Source of the DNA: Quercus robur | Lineage: Eukaryota; Streptophyta; Magnoliopsida; Fagales; Fagaceae | Length of the DNA: 64,000 nucleotides | Direction of reading: 5' to 3' | NCBI RefSeq assembly: GCF_932294415.1 | Contig: NC_065536.1 | Span: 28,601,354-28,665,353 of the forward strand | Shown here: in pieces, positions 16,930 through 40,248 of the stretch | Layout: the number at the start of each line of letters is the position of its first letter | Numbering within the stretch: position 1 is the stretch's first letter | Position numbers and translations under genes: made by a program | Notes under the pieces: model-generated | Database searches by the model: none | What the model was told of the DNA's origin: nothing | The model's input: the letters and a program-made list of their open reading frames with translations, nothing else

Positions 16930-19558
16930 CTGGAATTACTTTTACGTACTAAATTTTTCTGCCTAGCTTTGCTTTCTTTTTTCTTTCTATGTGTTTGGGT
17001 TTTCTTTTTTCTTTGCTTTTCTCTCTTTCTCTCTCTGAAGCCTCTCCTCGCCGTGACAGAGTCTCTCTCTCTATATGTGAAAGGAGTCTGAGTGGTTTGG
17101 AGCTTGGAAACTAACGGTGGTGTATGTTGTTGTAATGACCAAAATGTCCTTGTTTTCTATGTTTTTTGTTTTTTTTTTTTTAATGTATGGTCATGTTGGG
17201 TATTTTATTTTTTATTTATTTCAAACAAACATGAAACATGTATGTCAATACTTTTTTGTGTGTGTAGTTGTGTACTGTATATGTCCATATTTGGTGGGAT
17301 GGAAGACAGTGTGATTTCCAAAAAAATAAAATAAAAAATTAGTTGCAGCAGCCAGCCAGCCACATAGTACATTAGTCAAATGGTATTTTATAAAGTTTGA
17401 GATCAAATTCTTCTATCACTTATAAGCCCAATATGGGAAGGTAATAATTAATTTATAACAATTACTTAAAAAAAAGTAATAATTAATGATAAATAATCGC
17501 AATCTAAATTGAATCTAACCTTTTTTTTTCTTTTTTTCTTTTTTTTGTGAGAATCAATTGAATCTAACTTAGATTCTAGTCATAGTCTAATTTTGTGTCA
17601 TCCATTTTAATTTTCTTAATTTTAGGGTCTAATAACTTATTCATAATATTTAGCGCAAAATTCAGGATGATCATCCCTCTCAATGTCAATTTCTTTAAAA
17701 CTTTTTCCCCTCGCCCAATATGTGTGTTAAAAATAATTAGTATTTAAAAAAAATAGAGTAAAATATATATATCTCAAATTATAATTCAGATACTTTTAAG
17801 TAATACTGGAATTACTTTTACGTACTAAATTTTTCTGCCTAGCTTTGCTTTCTTTTTTCTTTCTATGTGTTTGGGTTTTCTTTTTTCTTTGCTTTTCTCT
17901 CTTTCTCTCTCTGAAGCCTCTCCTCGCCGTGACAGAGTCTCTCTCTCTATATGTGAAAGGAGTCTGAGTGGTTTGGAGCTTGGAAACTAACGGTGGTGTA
18001 TGTTGTTGTAATGACCAAAATGTCCTTGTTTTCTATGTTTTTTGTTTTTTTTTTTTTAATGTATGGTCATGTTGGGTATTTTATTTTTTATTTATTTCAA
18101 ACAAACATGAAACATGTATGTCAATACTTTTTTGTGTGTGTAGTTGTGTACTGTATATGTCCATATTTGGTGGGATGGAAGACAGTGTGATTTCCAAAAA
18201 AATAAAATAAAAAATTAGTTGCAGCAGCCAGCCAGCCACATAGTACATTAGTCAAATGGTATTTTATAAAGTTTGAGATCAAATTCTTCTATCACTTATA
18301 AGCCCAATATGGGAAGGTAATAATTAATTTATAACAATTACTTAAAAAAAAGTAATAATTAATGATAAATAATCGCAATCTAAATTGAATCTAACCTTTT
18401 TTTTTCTTTTTTTCTTTTTTTTGTGAGAATCAATTGAATCTAACTTAGATTCTAGTCATAGTCTAATTTTGTGTCATCCATTTTAATTTTCTTAATTTTA
18501 GGGTCTAATAACTTATTCATAATATTTAGCGCAAAATTCAGGATGATCATCCCTCTCAATGTCAATTTCTTTAAAACTTTTTCCCCTCGCCCAATATGTG
18601 TGTTAAAAATAATTAGTATTTAAAAAAAATAGAGTAAAATATATATATCTCAAATTATAATTCAGATACTTTTAAGTAATACTGGAATTACTTTTACGTA
18701 CTAAATTTTTCTGCCTAGCTTTGCTTTCTTTTTTCTTTCTATGTGTTTGGGTTTTCTTTTTTCTTTGCTTTTCTCTCTTTCTCTCTCTGAAGCCTCTCCT
18801 CGCCGTGACAGAGTCTCTCTCTCTATATGTGAAAGGAGTCTGAGTGGTTTGGAGCTTGGAAACTAACGGTGGTGTATGTTGTTGTAATGACCAAAATGTC
18901 CTTGTTTTCTATGTTTTTTGTTTTTTTTTTTTTTAATGTATGGTCATGTTGGGTATTTTATTTTTTATTTATTTCAAACAAACATGAAACATGTATGTCA
19001 ATACTTTTTTGTGTGTGTAGTTGTGTACTGTATATGTCCATATTTGGTGGGATGGAAGACAGTGTGATTTCCAAAAAAATAAAATAAAAAATTAGTTGCA
19101 GCAGCCAGCCAGCCACATAGTACATTAGTCAAATGGTATTTTATAAAGTTTGAGATCAAATTCTTCTATCACTTATAAGCCCAATATGGGAAGGTAATAA
19201 TTAATTTATAACAATTACTTAAAAAAAAGTAATAATTAATGATAAATAATCGCAATCTAAATTGAATCTAACCTTTTTTTTTCTTTTTTTCTTTTTTTTG
19301 TGAGAATCAATTGAATCTAACTTAGATTCTAGTCATAGTCTAATTTTGTGTCATCCATTTTAATTTTCTTAATTTTAGGGTCCAATAACTTATTCATAAT
19401 ATTTAGCGCAAAATTCAGGATGATCATCCCTCTCAATGTCAATTTCTTTAAAACTTTTTCCCCTCGCCCAATATGTGTGTTAAAAATAATTAGTATTTAA
19501 AAAAAATAGAGTAAAATATATATATCTCAAATTATAATTCAGATACTTTTAAGTAATA
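16930..19558. repeat. Tandem triplication of an 876-bp unit upstream of VAC14
   Basis: Three head-to-tail copies: 16930-17805, 17806-18681 and 18682-19558. The sequence CTGGAATTACTTTTACGTAC starts at 16930, 17806 and 18682. By eye copies 1 and 2 are identical. Copy 3 has one extra T in a T-run near 18920 and one T-to-C change near 19382. Each unit holds a CT-rich leader-like patch, TTCGCCGTGACAGAGTC-like sequence, long T-runs and a GCAGCAGCCAGCCAGCC patch. Identical 65-80-codon open frames recur in each copy (such as 17092-17334) but are rich in Phe/Cys from T-runs and are not credible genes. Either a very recent duplication or an assembly effect. Confidence 0.95.
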
Positions 19559-24362: not shown

Positions 24363-25238
24363 AGTCCAAATCTTTTGTTCCACTTTTTGTGCTCAGTTTA
24401 TACTCCATGAATAAAAATTTGATATGTGTAACCTAATTAATTAAATTATAATTTTATTCCTTTAATATTTCATACTCCAAATAAATAAATCCAACACACT
24501 CCATGACCACCACCTACATTCACTAGCAAGAGGTCGCCATGCCATCAACACTGCAATTCATGGACAACCACCGCCTTCGACGAACCCATCTCTCTTTCAT
24601 TTCATCCTTCTCAAGCCCACCCACCACCATTGTTATCTTTATATCGAAGGATTATTAAGGATTTGTTGTGACTATTCATATCAACTTACAATGATCTCAT
24701 TTATTTTCAAAAGGGTGTTAATGGTTTTGCTTTAGATTGATGGGATTGTTGTTTAACCAAAAGTTTGATTTTGGTATTTGTTATTTGGTTGAAATTGGTG
24801 GTGGGTAGAAGAGAGATGGGTTCGTCAAGGAGGGTGGCTAGCCATGACTGTGTTGAAGGCATCGGCAGCCTCTTGCTAGTGGCACCAGCGCAAGTTAGTG
24901 GTGGGTGGAAAGGGTGGTAGAGTGGTGGGGGTGGGGTTTAAGATGAATGAAGTGGAAGAAAGAAGGATTCATTGGAGGCGGTGGTTGGCCATGAATGGAA
25001 GTGTTGATGGTTTCGACCACCTCTTGCTAGTGGTGTCAACAAAGGTAGGTCATATGTAGTGAACCAATGGTGGTGATGAGGTGTATTGGGTTTTTTTTTT
25101 TTTTTAGGTAACTATAATATTAAAGGAATAAAATTAGAATTTAATTAATTAAGTTACATATATCAAGTTTTTATATTTGTAAAGTATAGAATATAAAGTT
25201 GGGGGGGGGGGGGGAATGAAACAGAAAAATTGGACTCC
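24363..25238. mobile_element. Foldback element, 876 bp, 9-bp target duplication (Mutator-like)
   Basis: Long inverted ends: the left arm 24363-24480 (AGTCCAAAT ... TTTGATATGTGTAACCTAATT ... TTTATTCCTTTAATATT) is matched in reverse complement by 25105-25236. ATTTTTCCT occurs at both flanks (24354-24362 and 25239-25247), a 9-bp target duplication as made by Mutator-like elements. The interior is GC-richer (24500-25075) and itself inverted: CTAGCAAGAGG near 24523 against CCTCTTGCTAGT near 24870 and again near 25019. No transposase is visible. Confidence 0.75.
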
Positions 25239-25855: not shown

Positions 25856-27138
25856 TGATAAGGAACATTTTAACTGAGAAATTTTCTAACTCTTTTTTCC
25901 CTTCGAGTTTGGATTGCCCTTCATGTCCATTACCCTTCAGGTTAGAAAGTACTCGTTGGGTCCATTTACCCTTCGAGATGGAAATGCCCCTTGAGTCCAT
26001 TTACCCTTTGGGTTGGAAAGTACTCGTCAGGTCCATTTACCCTTCGGGTTGGAAATGCCCTTCAAGTTCATTTACCCTTCAGGATCCATTTACTCTTCGA
26101 GATGGAAATGCCCCTCAGGTCCATTTACCCCTCGGGTTGGAAAGTACCCGTTGGGTCCATTTACCCTTCGGATTGAAAATGCCCTTCGAGTTCATTTATC
26201 CTTTGGGTTGGAAAGTACCCATTGGGTCCATTTACCGTTCAAGTTGGAAATGCCCTTCGGGTCCATTACCTTTCGGGTTGGAAAGTACCTGTCGGGTCTA
26301 TTTACCCTTCGGGTTGGAAATGCCCTTCGAGTTCATTTACTCTTTGGGTTCCATTTACCCTTCAGGTTGGATAGTACTTGTTGGGTCTGTTTACACTTCA
26401 AGTTGGAAGGTACCCGTCAGGTCCATTTACCCTTCGGGTTGAAAAGTACCCATTAGGTCCATTTACCCTTCAGGTTGGAAAGTACCCATCGGTCCATTTA
26501 CCCTTCAAGTTCCATTTATCCTTTGGGTTGAAAATGCCATCAGGTTCCATTTACCATTTAGGTTTGAAAGGTCCATCGATCTCTTTTTACCCTTCGGGTA
26601 CTAGGTCCCTTTCAGGATGATTATGAAGTGACATCGGCCATGCTCTCCACTCACATTCACCATCGGGTAGGAAAGTACCCATCGAATTACCCAATACTGA
26701 GGATGGATTACACTAAGTCCCACACCATTTTAGTGTTCCCCACTCATGCATCCTTATATGGAAAGAACTTGCACACCACTTCCAAAGAAACTTCTATATA
26801 TTTGTATCCTCCTAGTATGAGAAGTAAAGCCCTAAGATCTCGGAACATTAACTCCATATCTTTCATACAAGGAAAGATCCTATGTTCATGAGATCTTGGT
26901 CAGCCCTACACCACTATATAAGCATCAAGTCTCCTCTTCTCCAAGGTACATAAAAAATTTCCTAACTCTCACACTTTTGAGTTATTGGAGATTCTTCTAT
27001 CACTGACTTAACCTTTGAAAGGTCTTTGGCCAGCACCTCACCGATACTCTTTGTAGGTTCTTCTTCCTTTTGTTCTTCAAGTACCCGATTGGCATGCGTC
27101 TGGACGATCAACTCACTAACAATTTTTGTGCATCATCA
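25856..27138 (+). mobile_element. Probable solo LTR, about 1.28 kb, carrying an internal minisatellite
   Basis: Starts TGATAAGGAAC and ends TTTGTGCATCATCA, giving TG...CA ends. The end closely matches the LTR end of the intact gypsy element at 30475-40243 (CTTGTGCATCATCA on its coding strand). A TATA box (CTATATAAGC) lies near 26912, followed by a pyrimidine-rich segment and phrases typical of gypsy LTR 3' parts (GGTCTTTGGCCAGCACC). Flanks AAAAA and TAAAA could be a decayed 5-bp target duplication, but the site is A-rich. No internal region adjoins it. Boundaries are approximate. Confidence 0.5.
25915..26610. repeat. 35-36-bp minisatellite (GGTCCATTTACCCTTCGGG family)
   Basis: About 18-20 imperfect tandem units built from GTCCATTTACCCTTCGGGTT followed by GGAAA and either TGCCC or GTACCCGT. 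Short units lacking the GGAAA part interrupt the order. All overlapping open frames (25855-26442, 25991-26176, 26013-26456, 26378-26620) arise from this repeat and are not genes. Confidence 0.9.
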
Positions 27139-30307: not shown

Positions 30308-30474
30308 TTGATCTTCATTCTAAAAGGAAAAAAAATACCACTAAAAAAAGGTTTAAAAAAAATACTACTTGAGTAGATAATAATCACGTTGCAAATTTTT
30401 CTTGATTTAAGTGGCCCTGGGAATCCATTACATAAAGCAAAGAAAAAAATAGGAAAAAAATACAAGAACATATT

Positions 30475-30954
30475 TGATGATGCACAAGATCGTCAGCAAG
30501 AATGAGCAGATGGAACCCTTTGTAGTGCGAGAGAGTATGCTTAATGATGGTCACCGGTGTGGTGCCTGCCACAACGTCTCCGATGCCAAAGTTAGAAAGA
30601 TAAATAAAAATTAAGAATCAGAATATGCTCTCAAGATGTCAGTATGTGTATATATCGTACCTTTTGTTGACTCTGTGAGAGCTTTATACCTGCGGCCTTG
30701 GGGGCTAGCCGTTGGGGTGGTTAATGCTTTCTCAAGTAACGCCCTTGGTCCAGTAATGAGACTTTTAAGAGGTTCCCAACGGTCTGCTGGGTTGATTTCG
30801 TAACCGCTCAGGTCATTGATTGGCTGCATTGAATGACTCCCTACCTTCGTCAGTGATGATAGCTTTCTTCGTTGTTCCAGAGGACTTCGTCAAGGACGCT
30901 TCCTTCGTCATTAGTGTTATCTTCGTCTCTGATGTAGCATCGTCATTCCCATCA
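30475..30954 (-). repeat. 3' LTR of the gypsy element
   Basis: 480 bp, matching 39764-40243 with about five single-base differences and no gap that I can see. On the element strand it begins TGATGGGAATGACG and ends GTGCATCATCA. Confidence 0.95.
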
Positions 30955-30966
30955 GTTGCCCCCTAG
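30955..30966 (-). other. Polypurine tract
   Basis: On the element strand CTAGGGGGCAAC lies directly before the 3' LTR start. This is the expected position of the plus-strand primer. Confidence 0.7.
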
Positions 30967-31667
30967 GGTTCTGGGGTCGTCGGTGACGTGTCATGACGAT
31001 CACGGAAGATGAAAAGTTTTTCTTGTGACTCTTGGGGTTCTATTCCGCTTTTAATGCTTAGTGGCGGCGCTACACGCAATCATGGCCACGTGGCGTGAGA
31101 TGATCTGGGGAATTAATGGTATGACTCTTGGGTTTCCCGCTGGTTTTCCAATCGCTTTTTGGCCTAAGTTTAAAACTTCTCTTCTTTAATTTTTCTTTTA
31201 CTTTTCAGAGAGCAAAGACAGAAAAATTCCCTAGTGATATTCTGAGACCTCCTTTCTTCTCCAAATCACCTTGCGCTGTGCTTTTGCTGTTTCCGCCATT
31301 GGAGGTACGTTTCTCTTTCCTTTTACTTCCTTCTTTTTTCTTTTACTGCAGCATAATTTCTGATTATATGTTTCCTTTTATTTCTCTTCTGTTGTTGGTC
31401 TCTGTTTTTCTTTTTTGGGGATTTAGTTTGTACCGTATTTCTCTACCCTTTGATTTCTGCATATCCATGGTTGATAGTTTGGAGATTAGGACAGCTTGCC
31501 CATCGGTCTCCTTCCTTTTTGCGCGCCTAGGGGGGTCTTTGGGTACTTATCCGTTTTTAGAAAATTTTGTGTTTGAGGGCAATTGTCTGAGCGTGGTTTT
31601 GGGCGACTTGTTGCCCTTGCTCCGTCAATCGCTAAATTGGTTCGAGGGTTTAGCAAGGAGAGGGTCA

Positions 31668-33640
31668 ATGTCTGAGGTTAGGTCTAGTGACCTTGAAATT
31701 GGGCTGTCATCTAGTGGCGACCCGGCTGAAGGGGATACAGCCGTCTCTGGCCTTCGGGAGGTTAGGGCTTTTTACGCCCTCGGGGAGGTTTGTGGTCTGG
31801 ACGCCAAAACCGTAAATAGGTTCAAGGATAGGTTTCAATTTCCGTCTAGGGTTCGTGTTCGTCTACCTAGGGAAGAAGATAGGGCCTGCCACTTTTTCCC
31901 AGGTGAAGTATGTTTTTACGAGTCAAATTTCACTTGCGGGCTTAGATTCCCCGTCCACCCGTTCCTGATGGAACTTTTAGATCACTTTGGTATCGCCCCT
32001 GGGCAGCTCATGCCTAACTCGTGGAGGATCATGATCAACTGTATGCAAATATGGTTGGCCTCCAACGGGGATATGATCAGGATGGCTGAGCTCACTTACT
32101 TGTACCGTTTGAAAGAATCCAAGGAGTGGGGGTATTATGAGTTAGTCCCTTGGGAGAGAAAGACTAGGATCGTCAAGGGCTTGCCCTCGTCCTTCAGGTA
32201 TTGGAAGTCGCGCTTTTTCTTTGTGTTTGGGGATGACTTCGAGACTCAATCCAGCAGTGATTGGGGTGCTATTCCGAGGTTGCTCCGTCGGTGGGGAACC
32301 CCGACCTTAGGTGCGTCAGTATTTTCTCCCCGTCGTTTAATTTCGCCACCTTTGAGGTTCTGGTTTTGCTAACTTCTTTGTTCCTTTATTTGGCATAGTT
32401 AAGAGACGGCCTGGGCTTACGAGCCGGTATAAGGAACGCATCGAGACTACGTTCGGGTACGCTGAGACGATTAAGAGCTGGGACGAACTGGTTGACCCCC
32501 GATCTCTTGCATTTTACAACCTAGGTCCCGACCCGTCTCCTTACGTCCTTCGTCAACTTGGTATTGAAGGCAAAAAAAGTAAGTATTATCCTCGTCAGTG
32601 TTGATTCTTCTTGTGTACTTAAGCATTTTGATAAGCTTTTTCTTCTTGCAGAGATGATGACAAAATTTAACAAGGACATGTACGCAAAGATGAGATCGAA
32701 GAAGGATGAATCGCTGTCCAATCTGGGGAAGAAGGTCGTGCGCGTGACCGGGAAGGGCCCTGCTCCCACTCCCCTTAGTGTCATTCCTCTCGCAGCTCCT
32801 GAGACGACGAGAACTGCCTCTCCAACTGCGTCAATAAAGGAGATCGCTACTCCTGGCTCCAAAAGGCAGCGCTTGGCTGACAAAGGGAAGGAGAAGGAGA
32901 AGGTTGATATTCGTCCGTCCACAATATGGGATGACGAAAGGTTGGCCATGGACAAGGCTCACGAGGTTGTCACTCTAGCGGACCTAAGGGCTCTTTCAGA
33001 CATGTCTTTGAACGACGTCGCCTCTCGTCATGTTCATAAGCTCGTCCAGGTACGGAGTTCTTCCATATTTTCCCTTTTCACTCTTTTTTTTTTTTTTTAC
33101 TGACGACTCTATAACTTCTCTCAGGTGTTGGGAGAGAGCCTCCATATTACCACCGAGTATCTCACTCAAGAGGCCAAAGTGGCATCTCTGACAACGCGGA
33201 TGGAGGCCCTGGAGAAAGAGAACTCTGATCTGAAAAAGAACCTGATAACCTCCATGGACGAGGCAACCTCGTTGAAGGAGAAGGTTAAAGTGCTGGGAGA
33301 CGACCTTCGGGTTGAACACAAGTTGACTCAAGAGAAGGATGAGCAGCTTCTTTCAGCCAAGGAGAAGCTTGCAACTATCGCTGCCAGGTCGGTGGAGGCT
33401 TTCCAGACCACTGACGAGTACAATACTGTACTCTTCAGTTGGTATTTTAAAGGTTTCGAGCTTCTTAGGAGATATCTCGTCAAGCATCCATCTGGGGTGA
33501 ACATGGAGAGCTTGGATCTGGAGGAGGTAGATAAGGAGATGGCTTTGGACGAAGCGGCTCAATCCTCTGCCCTAGAGGGTGATGCTCCAGAGCCTGCCAC
33601 CGACGCACCTGCTGTTGAGGACGCTGCTGCTGATGCCTGA
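31668..33640 (+). CDS. Antisense gene of the gypsy element: putative gypsy-type transposon domain protein with coiled coil
   Basis: Four exons on the strand opposite gag-pol: 31668-32310, 32399-32578, 32652-33049, 33125-33640. Their introns (32311-32398, 32579-32651, 33050-33124) have GT and AG ends, and together they give one frame of 578 codons. The first exon holds the conserved block (CGLRFPVHPFLMELLDHFGI, then PGQLMPNSWRIM) that I recognise as the putative gypsy-type transposon domain (Pfam Transposase_28). Exon 3 is Lys/Thr/Pro-rich with a basic SKRQRLADKGKEKEK patch. Exon 4 begins with a heptad-like coiled coil (about 33125-33420) and ends in an acidic Ala-rich tail. Such antisense genes are known in the Tat lineage (gene 23 of Grande); their role is unknown. 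The start could also be an ATG at 31469 or 31128. No in-frame stop is seen, unlike gag-pol. Confidence 0.75.
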
Positions 33641-33814
33641 TCTTGGCACTTGGAAAATTTTCTTTTTTGTTGTATTTTTGGTGGATGCCCTTCTTGTTTT
33701 GGGCCCCCTTTTTTTTTTTCTTATTTCAGAACAATCATTTATTTTGGAAACGATGTTAATCACCCAGTGGTTATGGGTTAAAATGAGGCATACTTACCCT
33801 TAGTAGATCACTTA

Positions 33815-33935
33815 TTTTGACGATCCTGAGCCCTGTTTATTCGTCGTCTGTTTGCTAACTGTTTTGACGATCTTGCGCCATGTTTATTCGTCGACCGTTT
33901 GCTAACTATTTTGACGATCTTGAGCGTATTTTGAG
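33815..33935. repeat. 47-bp tandem repeat in the gypsy element
   Basis: TTTTGACGATC starts at 33815, 33862 and 33909. Units continue with a TGTTTATTCGTCG and GTTTGCTAACT phrase. Two full units and one partial. Confidence 0.9.
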
Positions 33936-34039
33936 TGTTGTTTTGATTTGATGTATGGCTTTTCCCTTTTTCTCCTTTCCTCTTTATGTGAATTCGTCAC
34001 GAGGGCTTTTGTCACTTGTATTTGCTGTGGGTTGTGTAC

Positions 34040-34416
34040 GTAGTAATTTATGTCCGTCCAAGCGGAACATAGTCACTTAACTTTTTATCACCATGGGGTC
34101 TTCGTCAGCAACTTACATTGGTCAAGGCGGAATCTTATTACTTAGTTGTTTATACCCATTACATGGGTCGTCTGTAACTTACATCCGTCAAGGCGGAATC
34201 TTGTTACTTAGAGATTCATACCCAATAGGTGGGTCATCAGTAACTTACATCCGTCAAGGCGGAATCTTGTTACTTAGCGATTTATACCCAATAGGTGGGT
34301 CGTCAGTAACTTACATCCGTCAAGGCGGAATCTTGTTACTTTGGCTTTTTATACTCCTGGGGTTATCTTTAGTAACTTACATCCGTCAAGGCGGAATCTT
34401 GTTACTTTAACTTTTT
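34040..34416. repeat. 66-bp tandem repeat in the gypsy element
   Basis: ACTTACAT(C/T)(C/G)GTCAAGGCGG starts at 34111, 34177, 34243, 34309 and 34375, an exact 66-bp period. A decayed sixth copy lies near 34045. The 105-codon frame at 34093-34410 is this repeat read through and not a gene. It lies between the pol end and the 3' end of the antisense gene, where Tat-type elements are known to carry tandem repeats. Confidence 0.95.
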
Positions 34417-34511
34417 ATGGGCCTTATGGTTGACCAGTACTGCCTGCACAAAGACATCAGAAGAATAATTCTTTTATTAATCTTAAGAACGAATGCATTC
34501 GTCAATTACAT

Positions 34512-37500
34512 TTACTCATGGTACTTCTTTAAATGCTCAATGTTCCATGGCCGCGGGAGTTTTTTTCCGTCCAGGGCTTCCAGATGGTAACTTCCTTGTC
34601 TTGAGTAGTGAGTGACGCGGTAAGGCCCCTCCCATGTAGGGCCCAATTTTCCTTGAGTAGGGTCTTTAGTTGCTGCGGTGATCTTACGCAGGACGAGATC
34701 CCCTATGTCCAGTCGCCTGAGTTTGACCCTTTTGTTGTAATACTCGGCCATCTTTTTTTGATACTTTGTCATCCTACTAGATGCGTTGTCTCTTACTTCG
34801 TCCAGGCAATCCAGGTTGAGTCACAATTCGTCGTCATTGAGTCATTCTGTGAAAGTTCCTCGCCTGATGCTAGTTACCCCAACCTCTACTGGGATTACTA
34901 CTTCTGTGCCATAGGTAAGCTTGAAGGGTGTCTCTCCTGTCGGGGTTCTGGCCGTGGTTCTGTAGGCCCACAGGACGTTGGGTAGTTCTTCTGGCCAGGC
35001 ACATTTTGCTTCGTCCAGCTTGGTTTTGATAATTTTCAGCAGCGTCCTGTTCGTCACTTCTGTCTGTCCATTCGCTTGAGGGTGCCCTGGAGATGAGAAC
35101 TGATTTTTGATCCCAAGGCTTAAGCAGAATTCTATGAAGCCTTGACTGTCGAACTGCCTTCCATTGTCTGATATGATCGTCGAGGGAATCCCGAACCTAC
35201 AGATTATGTTCTTCCACACAAAGTTCTGGATCCGAGCCTCCGTGATCGTTGCCATGGCCTCTGCTTCAACCCATTTCGTGAAATAGTCAATAGCAACGAG
35301 AAGGAATTTTACCTGACCTTTACCTTGAGGCAGAGGACCGACGATATCGATTCCCCATTATGCAAATGGCCATGGGGAAGCTATGGTCGTCATTTTCTCT
35401 GCTGGAAGCCGCTGCACATTCCCGTATCGTCGGCATTTGTCGCACCTCCTGACGATCTCAGCAACGTCTACCTGCATGGTTGGCCAAAAATATCCTGCCC
35501 TTACCACTTTGTTTACTAGGGATCTGGAGCCGGCATGATCGCCGCAAATTCCTCCGTGTACCTCCTCCAAGATGTATTTGGCCTCTTCCTCGTCGACACA
35601 CTTCAAGTAGGGCATAGAGAAGCCTCTCTTGTACAAGACGTCATTCAGGATCGTGAATCTGGCTGCCCTCTTCTTGATCTTTCTGGCTTCTTCGGTGTTT
35701 TGAGGTAGGTGCCCGTCCTGGAGGAAGGACATTATGGGCGTTATCCAAGTATCAGTGCTCTGGATGGCGAAGGTTGCAACTTCCTCGATACTAGGGTGTT
35801 TTTGGACTTCCATCGCCAGGTTCGTGCCAGTCCCTTCTTCCTTTGATGACGCTAGCTTTGAGACTTCGTCAGCCCCCATATTCTGACTTCTTGGGATTTG
35901 TATGAACTCCACTGTATCGAATTCCTGAGCTAGCTGTCTTGCCAACTTGAGGTATTTCTGCATTCTTTCTTCTTTTGCCTCGTATTCTCCCCTGATCTGT
36001 CCAATCACTAGCTTTGAATCACTTTGGATCAACAAATTCTTGGCATCAAGTGCTTTCCCAAGCCTCAGTCCCGTCAGTATTCCTTCGTATTCAGCTTCGT
36101 TGTTGGTGGCTGGGAACCTTAGTTGGACCCCATATTTCAGCACTTCTCCGTCTGGGGTGGTTATGATGACCCCCACTCCCCCCTTCTTTTGGGCTGACGA
36201 ACCATCAGTCTGTATTATTAGTTTATCTGCTTCGTCTGTAATCATGTCTTCGTCAGGGGACGTGAATTCGACGATGAAGTCCGCCAGAGCTTGTGCCTTG
36301 ATCGCTGTTCTGGGATGGTACTCGATGTCAAATTGACTAAGTTCAATTGCCCACTGGACCATTCTCCCTACTGCTTCTGGCTGGTTCATTGACTTCTTGA
36401 TTGGTTGGTCCGTCATTACGAGAATAGGATTTGACTGGAAATATTGCCTGAGCTTGCGCGAGGCCACTATCAGTGCAAACGCAATCTTTTCGATCCTTGG
36501 GTATCTGGATTCAGCCCCTTGGAGAGCTTGGCTGATGTAGTAAACCGGGAGTTGCTTCTTGCCCTCTTCTCTAATCAAAGTTGCACTTACTGCCGAGGCT
36601 GACACCGCCAGGTATAGGTATAGGTTTTCTCCTTCTTTGGACGGGCTTAGGAGAGGAGGACTGCTCAGGTATTGCTTCAGCTCTTGGAACGCCGCTTCGC
36701 ACTCGTCGGTCCAAGCAAAAGCCTGCTTTAGTGTCTTAAAAAAGGGCAGACATTTGTCTGTGGCCCTAGAGACGAACCTGTTTAAAGCTGCTATTCTTCC
36801 TGTGAGTTTTTGAACATCCTTGACGGTTTTGGGTGAGGCCATGTCAATGATAGCTCGTACTTTCTTTGGATTCGCTTCTATTCCTCTTTGGGACACCATG
36901 AATCTCAAGAACTTCCCCGAAGCTACCCCAAAGGCACACTTGCTTGGATTCAACTTCATCTGGTGTTTTTTGAGGGTTGCAAAAGTTTCCTCTAAGTCGT
37001 CCAGATGTTTGAGCTCTTCCTTGCTCTTGACGAGCATATCGTCCACGTACACCTCCATGTTCCTGCCAATCTGCTGGCTGAACATTTTGTTTACCATTCT
37101 CTGATACGTAGCTCCAGCATTTTTCAGCCCAAAAGGCATCACCTTGTAACAGTAGAGTCCTTAACTTGTGATGAAGTCTGTCCTCTCCTAGTCTTCTTCA
37201 GCCATCTTTATCTGGTTGTACCCTGAGAAGGCGTCCATGAACGTCAGTAACTTGTGTCCAGCGGTGGAGTCCACGAGTTGGTCTATCCTTGGTAGAGGGA
37301 AGCTGTCATTTGGGCATGCTTTGTTCAGATTGGTGAAGTCTACATACATTCTCCACTTTCCGTTTGCTTTCTTTACCAGGACAACGTTGGCAAGCCATTC
37401 AGGATAATATACTTCTCGGATGAATCCAGCCGTCAAGAGTTTGGTTACTTCCTCTGCAACTTCCTGATCTCGCTCTGGGGCGAAGGTTCTTCGTCGTTGC

Positions 37501-38426
37501 TGAACGGGCTTCTTGCTGGGATCCACATTCAGCCTATGTTGGATAACTTCTGGAGATATGCCTGGCATGTCCTCGTGACTCCATGCAAAGACATCTAGAT
37601 TCTCTTTAAGGAACTTTATGAGTCTTGTTCTCATCTCGGGGCTTAGCGTCGTCCCTATCTTGGTCGTTTTACCTGCATTTCCTTCTACCAATTCCACTGT
37701 TTCCAAGGTCTCCATCCCGTCTTCCTCTTTTTCTTCAATCGTCCACGTGTGGTTTTCCTTTCCTGCCAGTACGGCCTGATAGCATTCCCTTGCCAGGACT
37801 TGATCACCTTTAACTTCACCCACGCCGTTGTTTGTTGGGAACTTCACCTTTAAACAGTAGGTTGACGTTGCCGCCTTCCACTTGTTGAGGGTGGGTCTCC
37901 CAATGATGACATTGTAGGATGAGGGACAATCTACCACCAGGAAGTCTACTTGTTTGGTTAATTGCAATGGGTAGGTCCCTGCCGTCACTGTCAGTGTCAC
38001 TATACCCCTGGGGTAGACCCTGTCTCCACTGAAACTAACGAGTGGAGAGTCAAAAGGGCGAAGCCTTTTTGGATCTAATCTCAGCTGCTGGAAGGCCGGG
38101 AAGTAGATGATATCCGCTGAGCTCCCGTTATCAACAAGGATCCTTTTGGTATTGAACCCTTCTATATTCAGCACTATGACCAGGGGATCGTTGTGGGGCT
38201 GCTTTACTCCCCTGGCGTCTCCTTCAGTGAAGGACATGTCTTGGTATGTTCGTCGGTGCTTGGACGGAGGCATGGTGTGGACGCTGTTCACCTGTCTATG
38301 GTATGCCTTTTTTAGTGATCTGAATGAACCTCCTGAGAATGGTCTTCCTGTGATCGTGTTTATCTCCCCGATCACCTTACGTGGAGGCTGTGACGGATGG
38401 TCGTCATCCCGAGTGAAGGATTCACG
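34512..38426 (-). pseudogene. Gypsy pol (protease, RT, RNase H, aRNH, integrase) with in-frame stops
   Basis: Same frame as gag, with no frameshift through to the terminal TAA (34512-34514). Protease: [11 protein letters not shown] near 38107. [18 protein letters not shown] near 37350, [16 protein letters not shown] just before the first stop, and catalytic YVDDM near 37040. RNase H 1 lies about 36400-36720. A second, archaeal-type RNase H lies about 35880-36230, with TDGSS, NEAEYEG and QSDSK. Integrase: zinc-binding VHGGICGDH...CDKC (about 35420-35560), then DIVG, SDNG and GQTEVTN for the D,D,E triad. Premature stops: TAG 37188-37190, TAA 37161-37163, TAA 35358-35360, TGA 34842-34844 and TGA 34821-34823. 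The first two fall inside RT, between the FMDAF and YVDD motifs. Not able to make full pol unless stops are suppressed. Confidence 0.93.
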
Positions 38427-39686
38427 CTAGGTCCTGTTGTCGTCTCTGAACTTGCTATATTCCCCTTTCTTTACATAGTTCTGCAACTTCCCTTTCCGTA
38501 TTAATTCCTCTATTTGCTCCTTCAGGTCTCTGCACTCTTCTGTGTTGTGGCCGTGGTCTCTATGGAACCGGCAGTACTTGCTCTTGTCACGTAAGTTGGG
38601 GGATGAGTGTAATGGCCTGGGCCATTTGAGGTAGTGCTCGTCCTTGATCTGCGTGAAAATCTTGTCAACAGGCATAACCAAGGGAGTAAATTTTACCGTC
38701 CGAGGATTTTTATCGTCATTCCTCCTATTCCCGTCATTGTTCCGACGTTCTGGTCTGTCTCGCTTTTGCCCCCTACGGTCATCTTCCCTCTTGACCTTGT
38801 CTCCTGGCCTCTCGGTATCTTTTATGGCAACCAGGGCATCTTCCACGTTCATGTACTTTTGTGCCTTCAGGAGCATCTCCGCCATCGTCTTCGGAGGGTT
38901 CTTTGCAAGAGAGGCCACGAGGTCTCTGGATCTCAACCCTGCTTTGAAGGTCGTCAGCTGTACCTTGTCATCAACTTCGTCTACTTCCAGAGTTTCCCTG
39001 GTGAATCGCTTGACATATGACCTCAGAGTCTCCTTCTCTCCCTGTCTTATGGTGAGTAAGTAATCTACTGGCCTCCTTGGGCGCTGTCCCCCTATGAAGT
39101 GGCGTAGGAAGGCACTGCTCAGCTGATCGAAATTGTCTATGGACGAGTTTGGCAACTTAGTAAACCATTCTCTTGCAGCTCCTTTGAGAGTTGTCGGGAA
39201 GGAGCGACACAATATCTCGTCAGGTGGTTGCTGAAGACCCAGAGTCGTCTTAAAGGTATTAAGATGATCCTGGGGGTCCTTGAGTCCGTCGAATGGCTCT
39301 AACTGAGGCAGGCGAAACTTCGACGGCACAGGGCATTCAAGTACCACAGCAGTGAATGGCGAATCCGTAACTCTTATCATTTTGTCTACGCTTCGGTCCG
39401 TCTTCTCTTTGATAGCGCTCCTTAGTTCATCCATCTCTTTCCTCATTTCTCGAAGAAGATCTGAGTTCTGTTCGTCCGGAGTTGCTGGTCTTCGGGGGGT
39501 TTCCCTCCGTTGACTATCCCCTTCTTCCTCCATGTTACCCTTGGACCGGTTCTCTTCCTGTTGAGCTTGTTGAACCTGCTGGAGCCGCAACTTCATTTCC
39601 TGGTTCTGTTTGGTGAGTTCTTCAATGGTGGCTGCGAGGGCCTGGACTTGCTGGGCCAAGGCTGTTGAGTCTGAGTTGGATTCCAT
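38427..39686 (-). CDS. Gypsy gag polyprotein
   Basis: 419 codons from [10 protein letters not shown] to a TAG at 38427-38429. The N-terminal third is Gln/Glu-rich coiled coil followed by a charged linker. The retrotransposon gag (capsid) domain spans about residues 135-290 ([20 protein letters not shown], then [10 protein letters not shown] and LSSAFLRHF). It is followed by a very basic segment (about 290-330) and a knuckle [14 protein letters not shown] of the form C-x2-H-x4-H-x4-C, a variant of the usual CCHC. The frame continues into pol after the TAG, so the stop may be a mutation of a Gln codon in a gag-pol fusion or a natural readthrough point. Confidence 0.93.
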
Positions 39687-39750
39687 TTGAATGCAGAGGG
39701 TTGATGGGAACTACGTTTTCAGATATGAATCTGGAAATAGCGTCCCCACA

Positions 39751-39760
39751 GACGGCGCCA
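39751..39760 (-). other. Primer binding site of the gypsy element
   Basis: On the element strand TGGCGCCGTC lies three bases after the 5' LTR. The first nine bases are complementary to the 3' end of plant tRNA-Asp as I remember it (...ACGGCGCCA). Confidence 0.7.
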
Positions 39761-39763
39761 GAC

Positions 39764-40243
39764 TGATGATGCACAAGATCGTCAGCAAGAATGAGCAGAT
39801 GGAACCCTTTGTAGTGCGAGAGAGTATGCTTAATGATGGTCACCGGTGTGGTGCCTGCCACAACGTCTCCGATGCCAAAGTTAGAAAGATAAATAGAAAT
39901 TAAGAATCAGAATATGCTCTCAAGATGTCAGTATGTGTATATATCGTACCTTTTGTTGACTCTGTGAGAGCTTTATACCTGCGGCCTTGGGGGCTAGCCG
40001 TTGGGGTGGTTAATGCTTTCTCAAGTAACGCCCTTGGTCCAGTAATGAGACTTTTAAGAGGTTCCCAATGGTCTGCTGGGTTGATTTCGTAACCGCTCAG
40101 GTCATTGATTGGCTGCATTGAATGACTCCCTGCCTTCGTCAGTGATGATAGCTTTCTTCGTTGTTCCAAAGGACTTCGTCAAGGATGCTTCCTTCGTCAT
40201 TAGTGTTATCTTCGTCTCTGATGTAGCATCGTCATTCCCATCA
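39764..40243 (-). repeat. 5' LTR of the gypsy element
   Basis: 480 bp. A TATA-like ATATATACAC on the element strand near 39936-39945 would place the transcript start shortly downstream. It ends in CATCATCA next to the primer binding site. Confidence 0.95.
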
Positions 40244-40248
40244 ATATT

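Follow-up and report, generated by a model that had tools for sequence, protein, structure and literature searches.

Structure of the element and its antisense gene

The analyzed stretch of Quercus robur DNA (64,000 nucleotides, referred to below as the window) contains a complete Ty3/gypsy element at 30475–40243, with a 5-bp target duplication (atatt) and two LTRs that differ at 5 of 480 bp, every difference being a transition (Table 1). The gag-pol reading frame (39686 to 34512) is unbroken apart from six in-frame premature stops, whose first bases are located at 38429, 37190, 37163, 35360, 34844 and 34823. When separate pieces of gag-pol were compared with Pfam, gag, RT, RNase H and integrase were matched, all on one strand. 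A second gene lies on the opposite strand, and reading of the frames bore out the earlier sequence-only reading in that this antisense gene is open while gag-pol has six premature stops. That reading had described the gene as on the strand opposite gag-pol; the coordinates place it in the 3.6 kb (3557 bp) separating pol from the 3' LTR, and there is no overlap with gag-pol.

Table 1. Features of the element in the window; LTRs are named in the sense of gag-pol.
Feature	Position	Strand	Basis and details
3' LTR	30475..30954	-	480 bp; target duplication atatt at 30470-30474; LTR comparison and flank sequence
Iterated TCGTCA, U3 end of LTR	30847..30945	+	starts at 30847, 30887, 30905 and 30940; one more at 30490
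Candidate promoter	30984..31200	+	TGACGTGTCATGACGA (30984-30999), G-box GCCACGTGGC (31085-31094), TTTAAAA (about 31169); 12-copy alignment
Predicted leader intron	about 31305..31426	+	donor pattern; acceptor placed by eye in the 12-copy alignment
Coding exon 1, Transposase_28 domain	31467..32310	+	frame, ATG conservation, PF04195 match
Coding exon 2	32399..32578	+	open frame, splice sites
Coding exon 3; its basic patch SKRQR..KEKEK may be a nuclear localisation signal	32652..33049	+	open frame, splice sites
Coding exon 4, coiled coil	33125..33640	+	open frame; structure prediction of a homologue
66-bp tandem array; the 41-bp core in each unit is an inverted repeat that could fold into a stem-loop	34042..34418	+	Tandem Repeats Finder
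gag-pol	34512..39686	-	one frame, six premature stops
5' LTR	39764..40243	-	480 bp; target duplication atatt at 40244-40248; LTR comparison and flank sequence

Of the published Retand clusters, 97% carry a TRP28 gene in antisense orientation in the interval from pol to the 3' LTR (PMC11963269), and the Transposase_28 match of the oak gene lies in this same location. The published ranges for the POL–3'LTR distance (2.9–6.6 kb), the LTR (315–1194 bp) and the internal region (7.4–12.9 kb; PMC11963269) include the values obtained here (3557, 480 and 8809 bp, respectively), and the 5-bp target duplication is combined with gag, RT, RNase H and integrase on a single strand. Judged by these sequence features, the element is a Retand-type retrotransposon and the gene is its Transposase_28 (TRP28) antisense gene, a family already described (PMC11963269).

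Elsewhere in the window, outside the element, a minisatellite with units of about 35/71 bp was found at 25859–26569. A pair of 300-bp repeats (18038–18337 and 18915–19214, 877 bp apart, 99% identity) is perhaps another young insertion or duplication, and an inverted repeat of 93 bp (24411–24503 and 25082–25174) is 80% complementary with its halves 578 bp apart.

The four exons of the antisense gene as first described (31668–32310, 32399–32578, 32652–33049 and 33125–33640) are joined by GT..AG introns into 578 codons with zero stops. This part of the sequence-only reading stood, and its start position did not: the same frame opens earlier, at ATG 31467, which adds 67 codons and gives 645 in total. 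This ATG is present in 45 of 48 related loci, the upstream extension has 7 stops summed over the 48, and the Transposase_28 match in the Castanea homologue P0001 begins 68 residues further in. All six splice sites were canonical in 32 of the 43 loci (out of 48) in which all six could be aligned. Several homologues, P0001–P0004, P0006 and P0007 (Castanea and Quercus) among them, are continuous over the same three exon joins in public gene models; from these models and the sequence we infer that the gene is spliced. A leader intron upstream of the coding start is likely, its donor pattern AGGTAYRTT occurring in 37 of 49 sequences. Upstream of it, the TGACGTGTCATGACGA box, the G-box GCCACGTGGC and TTTAAAA are conserved among the 12 aligned copies, and the antisense gene may be driven by its own promoter; for Grande gene 23, a review (PMC7264820) reports both an own promoter and a nuclear protein.

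The assignment of exon 1 to the putative gypsy-type transposon domain was confirmed by a match to PF04195 (Transposase_28, E 1.8e-10). Exon 4 had been read as coiled coil; for a homologue with 66% identity, structure prediction gives, with high confidence, a long coiled coil across the C-terminal half. The suggested kinship to the Grande gene 23 type also held, the gene being an antisense accessory gene with Transposase_28 plus a coiled coil. Structure prediction, one of the checks proposed in that reading, was run on a homologue and gave a pLDDT of 60.5 for the whole protein and 71.5, with a good core, for the exon-1 domain. The structure comparison yielded no PDB match for the fold of the Transposase_28 domain, so that DNA or RNA binding lacks structural support. 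A basic patch, SKR(P/Q)R..KEKEK, is common across copies. Identity as a bZIP transcription factor, which calls for a basic region together with a zipper, was rejected: the bZIP profile match was below the cut-off and covered model positions 25–64 only, i.e., the zipper half.

The first search, which scored only the best 7995 candidates, found at least 76 homologous proteins. Their hosts are Castanea, Quercus and Lithocarpus and, farther off, Actinidia, Cornus, Humulus, Rhamnella and Musa; the Actinidia and Cornus homologues show 25–28% identity across 79–85% of the length. A search of viral contigs gave no relative. Kinship to the plant mobile domain, hinted at by the database names of P0016 and P0026, had no Pfam support and was rejected. 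The public oak proteins P0024, P0036 and P0042 show similarity to the TRP28 gene and also bear host enzyme or receptor domains or names; they are probably annotation chimaeras.

Stop codons and selection in related copies

The window copy was compared with 48 loci of the same genome (785.7 Mb in 42 contigs), which represent 47 distinct copies (L006 is the same as L028) and were taken from 150 matches listed out of 4149 Transposase_28 candidates. Eight loci were the best matches, and 40 were picked by hand, partly on open-frame length, which biases exon 1 towards the intact state.

Two explanations had been offered for an open antisense gene beside a broken gag-pol: selection, or chance owing to the shorter length. 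If both genes decay equally per stop-prone site, the antisense gene of the window copy is expected to have 1.4–1.8 stops; zero were observed (P 0.17–0.29), which fits the second explanation. The survey of stops covered 19 copies including the window copy, the siblings L023 and L056 missing much of gag-pol, and counted 11 antisense stops in 10,925 codons and 70 gag-pol stops in 30,379 codons. After correction for opportunity, the 11 stops of the whole antisense gene compare with 16.1–19.7 expected (P 0.10 and 0.013), a deficit that is significant on one of two counts and rests on exon 1, the search bait through which the copies were found and which holds 1 of the 11 stops. Exons 2–4 have 10 stops against 7.5–12.8 expected (P 0.87 and 0.24). 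Equal stop loads in sibling copies had been named beforehand as grounds against selection, and for the window copy the exon 2–4 counts tell against it in just this way. Frameshifts in pairwise alignments were no rarer in the antisense gene either (9 vs 11 in the three-times-longer gag-pol). Selection on the window copy, as read from the stop asymmetry, was therefore rejected (P about 0.2; no deficit in exons 2–4). Very probably, the frame is open here since the insertion is young and the gene is short, and the window copy is unremarkable; the 5/480 LTR differences agree with this, as do the stops, most of which (9 of 11 antisense, 47 of 70 gag-pol) can be reached from the majority codon by one C>T or G>A change.

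The six gag-pol stops, against 1.0–1.5 expected from LTR divergence, raised the possibility that they were older than the insertion. This was dropped, as none of the six occurs in any of the 16–17 siblings aligned at each site; in addition, gag-pol stops per copy range from 0 to 11, two of the 18 siblings have an aligned gag-pol free of stops and frameshifts, and recurrence at C>T-prone codons is near chance by a hand estimate. The same stop occurs in two or three of the 19 copies at antisense codons 242, 367 and 481 and at twelve gag-pol codons, about as expected by chance at a few C>T-susceptible codons according to a rough estimate.

Chance survival in one copy leaves two observations unaccounted for, namely the Actinidia and Cornus homologues described above and the low dN/dS among copies. 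Antisense dN/dS ranged from 0.09 to 0.33 with a median of 0.119 in the 32 comparisons that covered more than 400 codons at a dS below 1. The comparison with gag-pol across siblings, proposed in the sequence-only reading, gave low medians for both genes in the 18 copies with gag-pol, 0.122 for antisense and 0.089 for gag-pol, the antisense value being the higher in 17 of the 18; all dN/dS values use the window copy as reference and hence are not independent. They are probably underestimated because dS exceeds intron divergence about twofold (about 0.55 vs 0.29 in the 84% group), and with introns as the yardstick dN/dS is about 0.25, well below 1. The codon comparisons thus indicate that the antisense gene is constrained across copies and that its amino acids are under selection. 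The claim that the asymmetry reflects selection fails for the window copy, where stop counts fit chance, and stands for the lineage, where dN/dS is low. Copies thus insert intact or nearly so and decay alike; selection works on the multiplying lineage, and stop counts in single copies mislead on selection for transposon genes.

The tandem array and the TCGTCA motif

Units of the array start at 34102, 34168, 34234, 34300 and 34366. The core consists of outer and inner arms, with five conserved bases in between (TTACA on one side, ATCTT on the other), and of a short loop. At least 37 of its 41 positions were matched in 36 of the 41 sequences examined downstream of the gene. In L052, the exact core and six units are placed further upstream, outside the stretch searched first, because its gene is shortened; in L020, the core match lies 119 bp past the end of the fetched piece. 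The best match in L026 reaches only 35/41, and the L010 and L015 pieces contain no core (20 and 21/41). A second repeat (47 bp × 2.4) was found at 33813–33925 with TGACGA and TTCGTCG face to face.

In L013, L014, L016, L019, L022 and L024, copies with nearly saturated synonymous sites (dS 1.5–2.5), the best core unit matches at 38–41 of 41 positions. Of the 1333 41-bp windows that cover the stretch from the LTR to pol, those of the array and of coding DNA among them, only 2–8 reach this identity. The corresponding numbers are 1 in L018, 16 in L009, 34 in L026 and 1330 in L010. The choice of the best of several units inflates the identity. Unit means were 35.0–40.3 of 41 in 14 chosen sequences when units under 33 were left out. 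Spacers of the six distant copies have a mean identity of 0.24–0.32 (best pairs 0.29–0.45), compared with 0.20–0.34 for shuffled ones, part of the drop stemming from unequal lengths; those of the nearer copies L009, L011, L018 and L055 are intermediate (0.42–0.53). Since spacers are near chance and the repeat period varies (58–99 bp, with higher values in L026 and L058), whole arrays have not been exchanged. One part of each array unit outlasts nearly all adjacent coding DNA. A genome-wide search with a 40-bp core pattern and up to 3 mismatches gave 1234 matches, and its reversed control gave 0.

Five single strands of three core variants fold to one general shape (z −2.7 to −3.8). In 11 units picked by eye, 89.9% of the arm cells pair, compared with 26–67% when the arms are slid, and 17 cells are changed on both sides against 6.8 after shuffling. 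The outer arms were not used in choosing a set of 44 distinct units from 38 loci, in which 68.6% of outer pairs are Watson–Crick compared with 54.6% when partners are shuffled (200 times, maximum 61.7%). A looser set of 132 distinct units, many of them false, gave 50.9% vs 34.2% paired with no indication of strand. The 44-unit set contains 24 G–T and 18 A–C pairs (P 0.44); as these are about equally common, they point to no particular RNA strand and do not favour RNA above DNA. At least two such hairpins are present in 38 of 42 sequences, shuffles averaging 0–0.67. They are missing in L010, L015, L020 and L052, in L020 and L052 owing to placing (beyond the end of the piece and a shortened gene, respectively).

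The conserved internal loop, the co-varying stems and the position between pol and the 3' LTR would also suit an element of the genomic RNA that, in the manner of a constitutive transport element, serves its packaging or its export from the nucleus and is bound by Gag or a host factor independently of the antisense protein. This explanation seems to us somewhat unlikely: G–U pairs are not in excess on either strand, and an Rfam search gave no match. The motif TCGTCA, nearly confined to one strand, agrees with it, but recurs in the LTR too. In the window, this motif is found on the antisense-gene strand 5 times in the LTR region and 3 times in the array region, against 0.13 expected in each, and is absent between the LTR and the gene.

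The motif is spaced by 18–40 bp in the LTR of the window copy, by 16–22 bp and multiples in the LTRs of eight chosen copies and by 17 bp in the arrays of twelve. Pairwise comparison of seven LTR ends showed 87% identity in motif columns (400/461) and 68% in spacers (1429/2112). Among the k-mers shared by LTR and array, TCGTCA is one of the top five 6-mers in 29 of 41 copies and CGTCA one of the top five 5-mers in 37 of 41. Searched through the genome, a 24-bp double motif was matched 827 times and its reversed control 113 times; among the 100 matches listed, 42 have a same-strand partner at 8.5–10.5 kb, as two LTRs would, and none at 18.5–20.5 kb. When the LTR region was taken at a set distance from the gene, the motif was missing from the antisense-gene strand in L001, L003, L004, L007, L008 and L016 and occurred singly in L005, L014, L015, L019 and L024. 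This speaks against a simple account of the motif, and these eleven loci do not track protein divergence neatly. An LTR block of about 50 bp (30546–30595) is 85–94% identical in L015, L016 and L024, copies that gave no LTR match of greater length.

TGACG is known as the as-1 half-site. The repeats, which lie mostly at the U3 end, could accordingly be read as half-sites (TCGTCA/TGACGA) of host TGA-type bZIP factors that make the LTR inducible, with the antisense protein working elsewhere. We consider this quite unlikely. L004, whose protein belongs to a distant clade (exon 1 identity 56%), has a 45-bp array of inverted TCGTCT and GGACGA pairs, which differ from TGACG; the TCGTC core is kept there, with flank and orientation altered. 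In addition, the motif exceeds the expectation from synonymous shuffles in both coding regions (TCGTCA 4 vs 0.59 in the antisense gene; TGACGA, on its own strand, 9 vs 3.95 in gag-pol).

Proposed function and known systems

On the whole, we lean slightly towards a Retand antisense gene that is open by chance in this copy and selected in the lineage, whose product is predicted to be a nuclear coiled-coil regulator reading the repeated cis-elements of its element. A narrower proposal is tentative and in our view rather unlikely: a two-part self-control in which the TRP28 protein reads both the array units and the LTR TCGTCA, lifting silencing or exporting the element RNA. On the first, broader reading, the gene would be transcribed from its own promoter just within the 3' LTR and the transcript spliced; the introns would outlast each round of transposition because their antisense location spares them from splicing of the genomic RNA. 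The TRP28 protein would enter the nucleus, as its basic patch and the reportedly nuclear Grande protein suggest, pair as a dimer through its coiled coil and bind the repeats of the array and/or the LTR, in the form of DNA or of hairpins in RNA. Binding would keep the element expressed or ferry its RNA out, and inserted copies would then decay neutrally. The gene would persist since only those copies multiply whose system works, either in cis or through relatives that supply it. The review PMC7264820 puts forward a different role for such genes, in which the antisense transcript matters, and not the protein, by forming double-stranded RNA with genomic RNA; here selection falls on amino acids and the gene does not overlap gag-pol, which makes this highly improbable.

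The survey of Retand TRP28 genes (PMC11963269) describes them as adjoining tandem arrays, predicts a DNA-binding role and suggests a regulatory one. The oak element agrees with it in that a Transposase_28 gene in antisense orientation separates pol from the 3' LTR, in the repeats by pol and in sizes within its ranges, and the antisense gene itself is a further member of the described family. It differs in that the ORFs of the survey were taken from ORF Finder without introns, whereas the oak gene is a conserved multi-exon one, and in that the arrays were termed highly variable, with their function unknown (PMC11963269, Vicient 2025), whereas the oak array has a conserved, co-varying core. In the text of PMC11963269, the words 'intron', 'splicing', 'stem-loop', 'hairpin' and 'conserved motif' occur 0 times, and 'spliced' only in a cited title. 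No conserved core or stem-loop in such arrays and no spliced TRP28 model were found in the literature searched (Steinbauerova 2011, Gomez-Orte 2013 and Kejnovsky 2006 lay outside it). As far as this literature goes, the novelty lies in the multi-exon structure conserved in oak, in a test that dissolves the stop asymmetry, in the co-varying conserved array core and in the motif common to LTR and array. With a conserved cis-element next to the gene of a likely nuclear protein, the role of TRP28 becomes testable by binding assays.

Grande gene 23 of maize is similar as an antisense gene in the 3' internal region, and differs in that such proteins are, according to the review, without clear database similarity (PMC7264820), whereas the oak gene encodes Transposase_28. 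The closest working model for TRP28 action is probably VANC, followed by a Rev-like RNA role. VANC proteins of VANDAL transposons bind one-orientation motif arrays in noncoding tandem repeats and remove silencing, according to PMC5735166 and PMC10398659. The likeness lies in an element-encoded protein, a short one-orientation motif in noncoding tandem repeats and a fast turnover of the repeats; one-orientation motif arrays of this kind were found in the oak element, the distant L004 having both orientations. VANDALs are DNA transposons, unlike the oak element. Further differences are that the oak core is a highly conserved inverted repeat and that motif binding and loss of methylation are hypothetical for the oak protein; a comparison by name found no VANC-named family in the Pfam and homologue lists of the antisense protein. 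With retroviral Rev/RRE and constitutive transport elements, the oak element would share the logic of an accessory protein that acts in the nucleus together with RNA repeats that are structured and contain internal loops; they have no homology to the oak system, and the RNA role known there is hypothetical here. We know of no earlier LTR retrotransposon with VANC- or Rev-like self-recognition, and if the proposal is true, the oak element would be the first, and TRP28, a domain without an assigned function from a large family of plant elements, would gain one.
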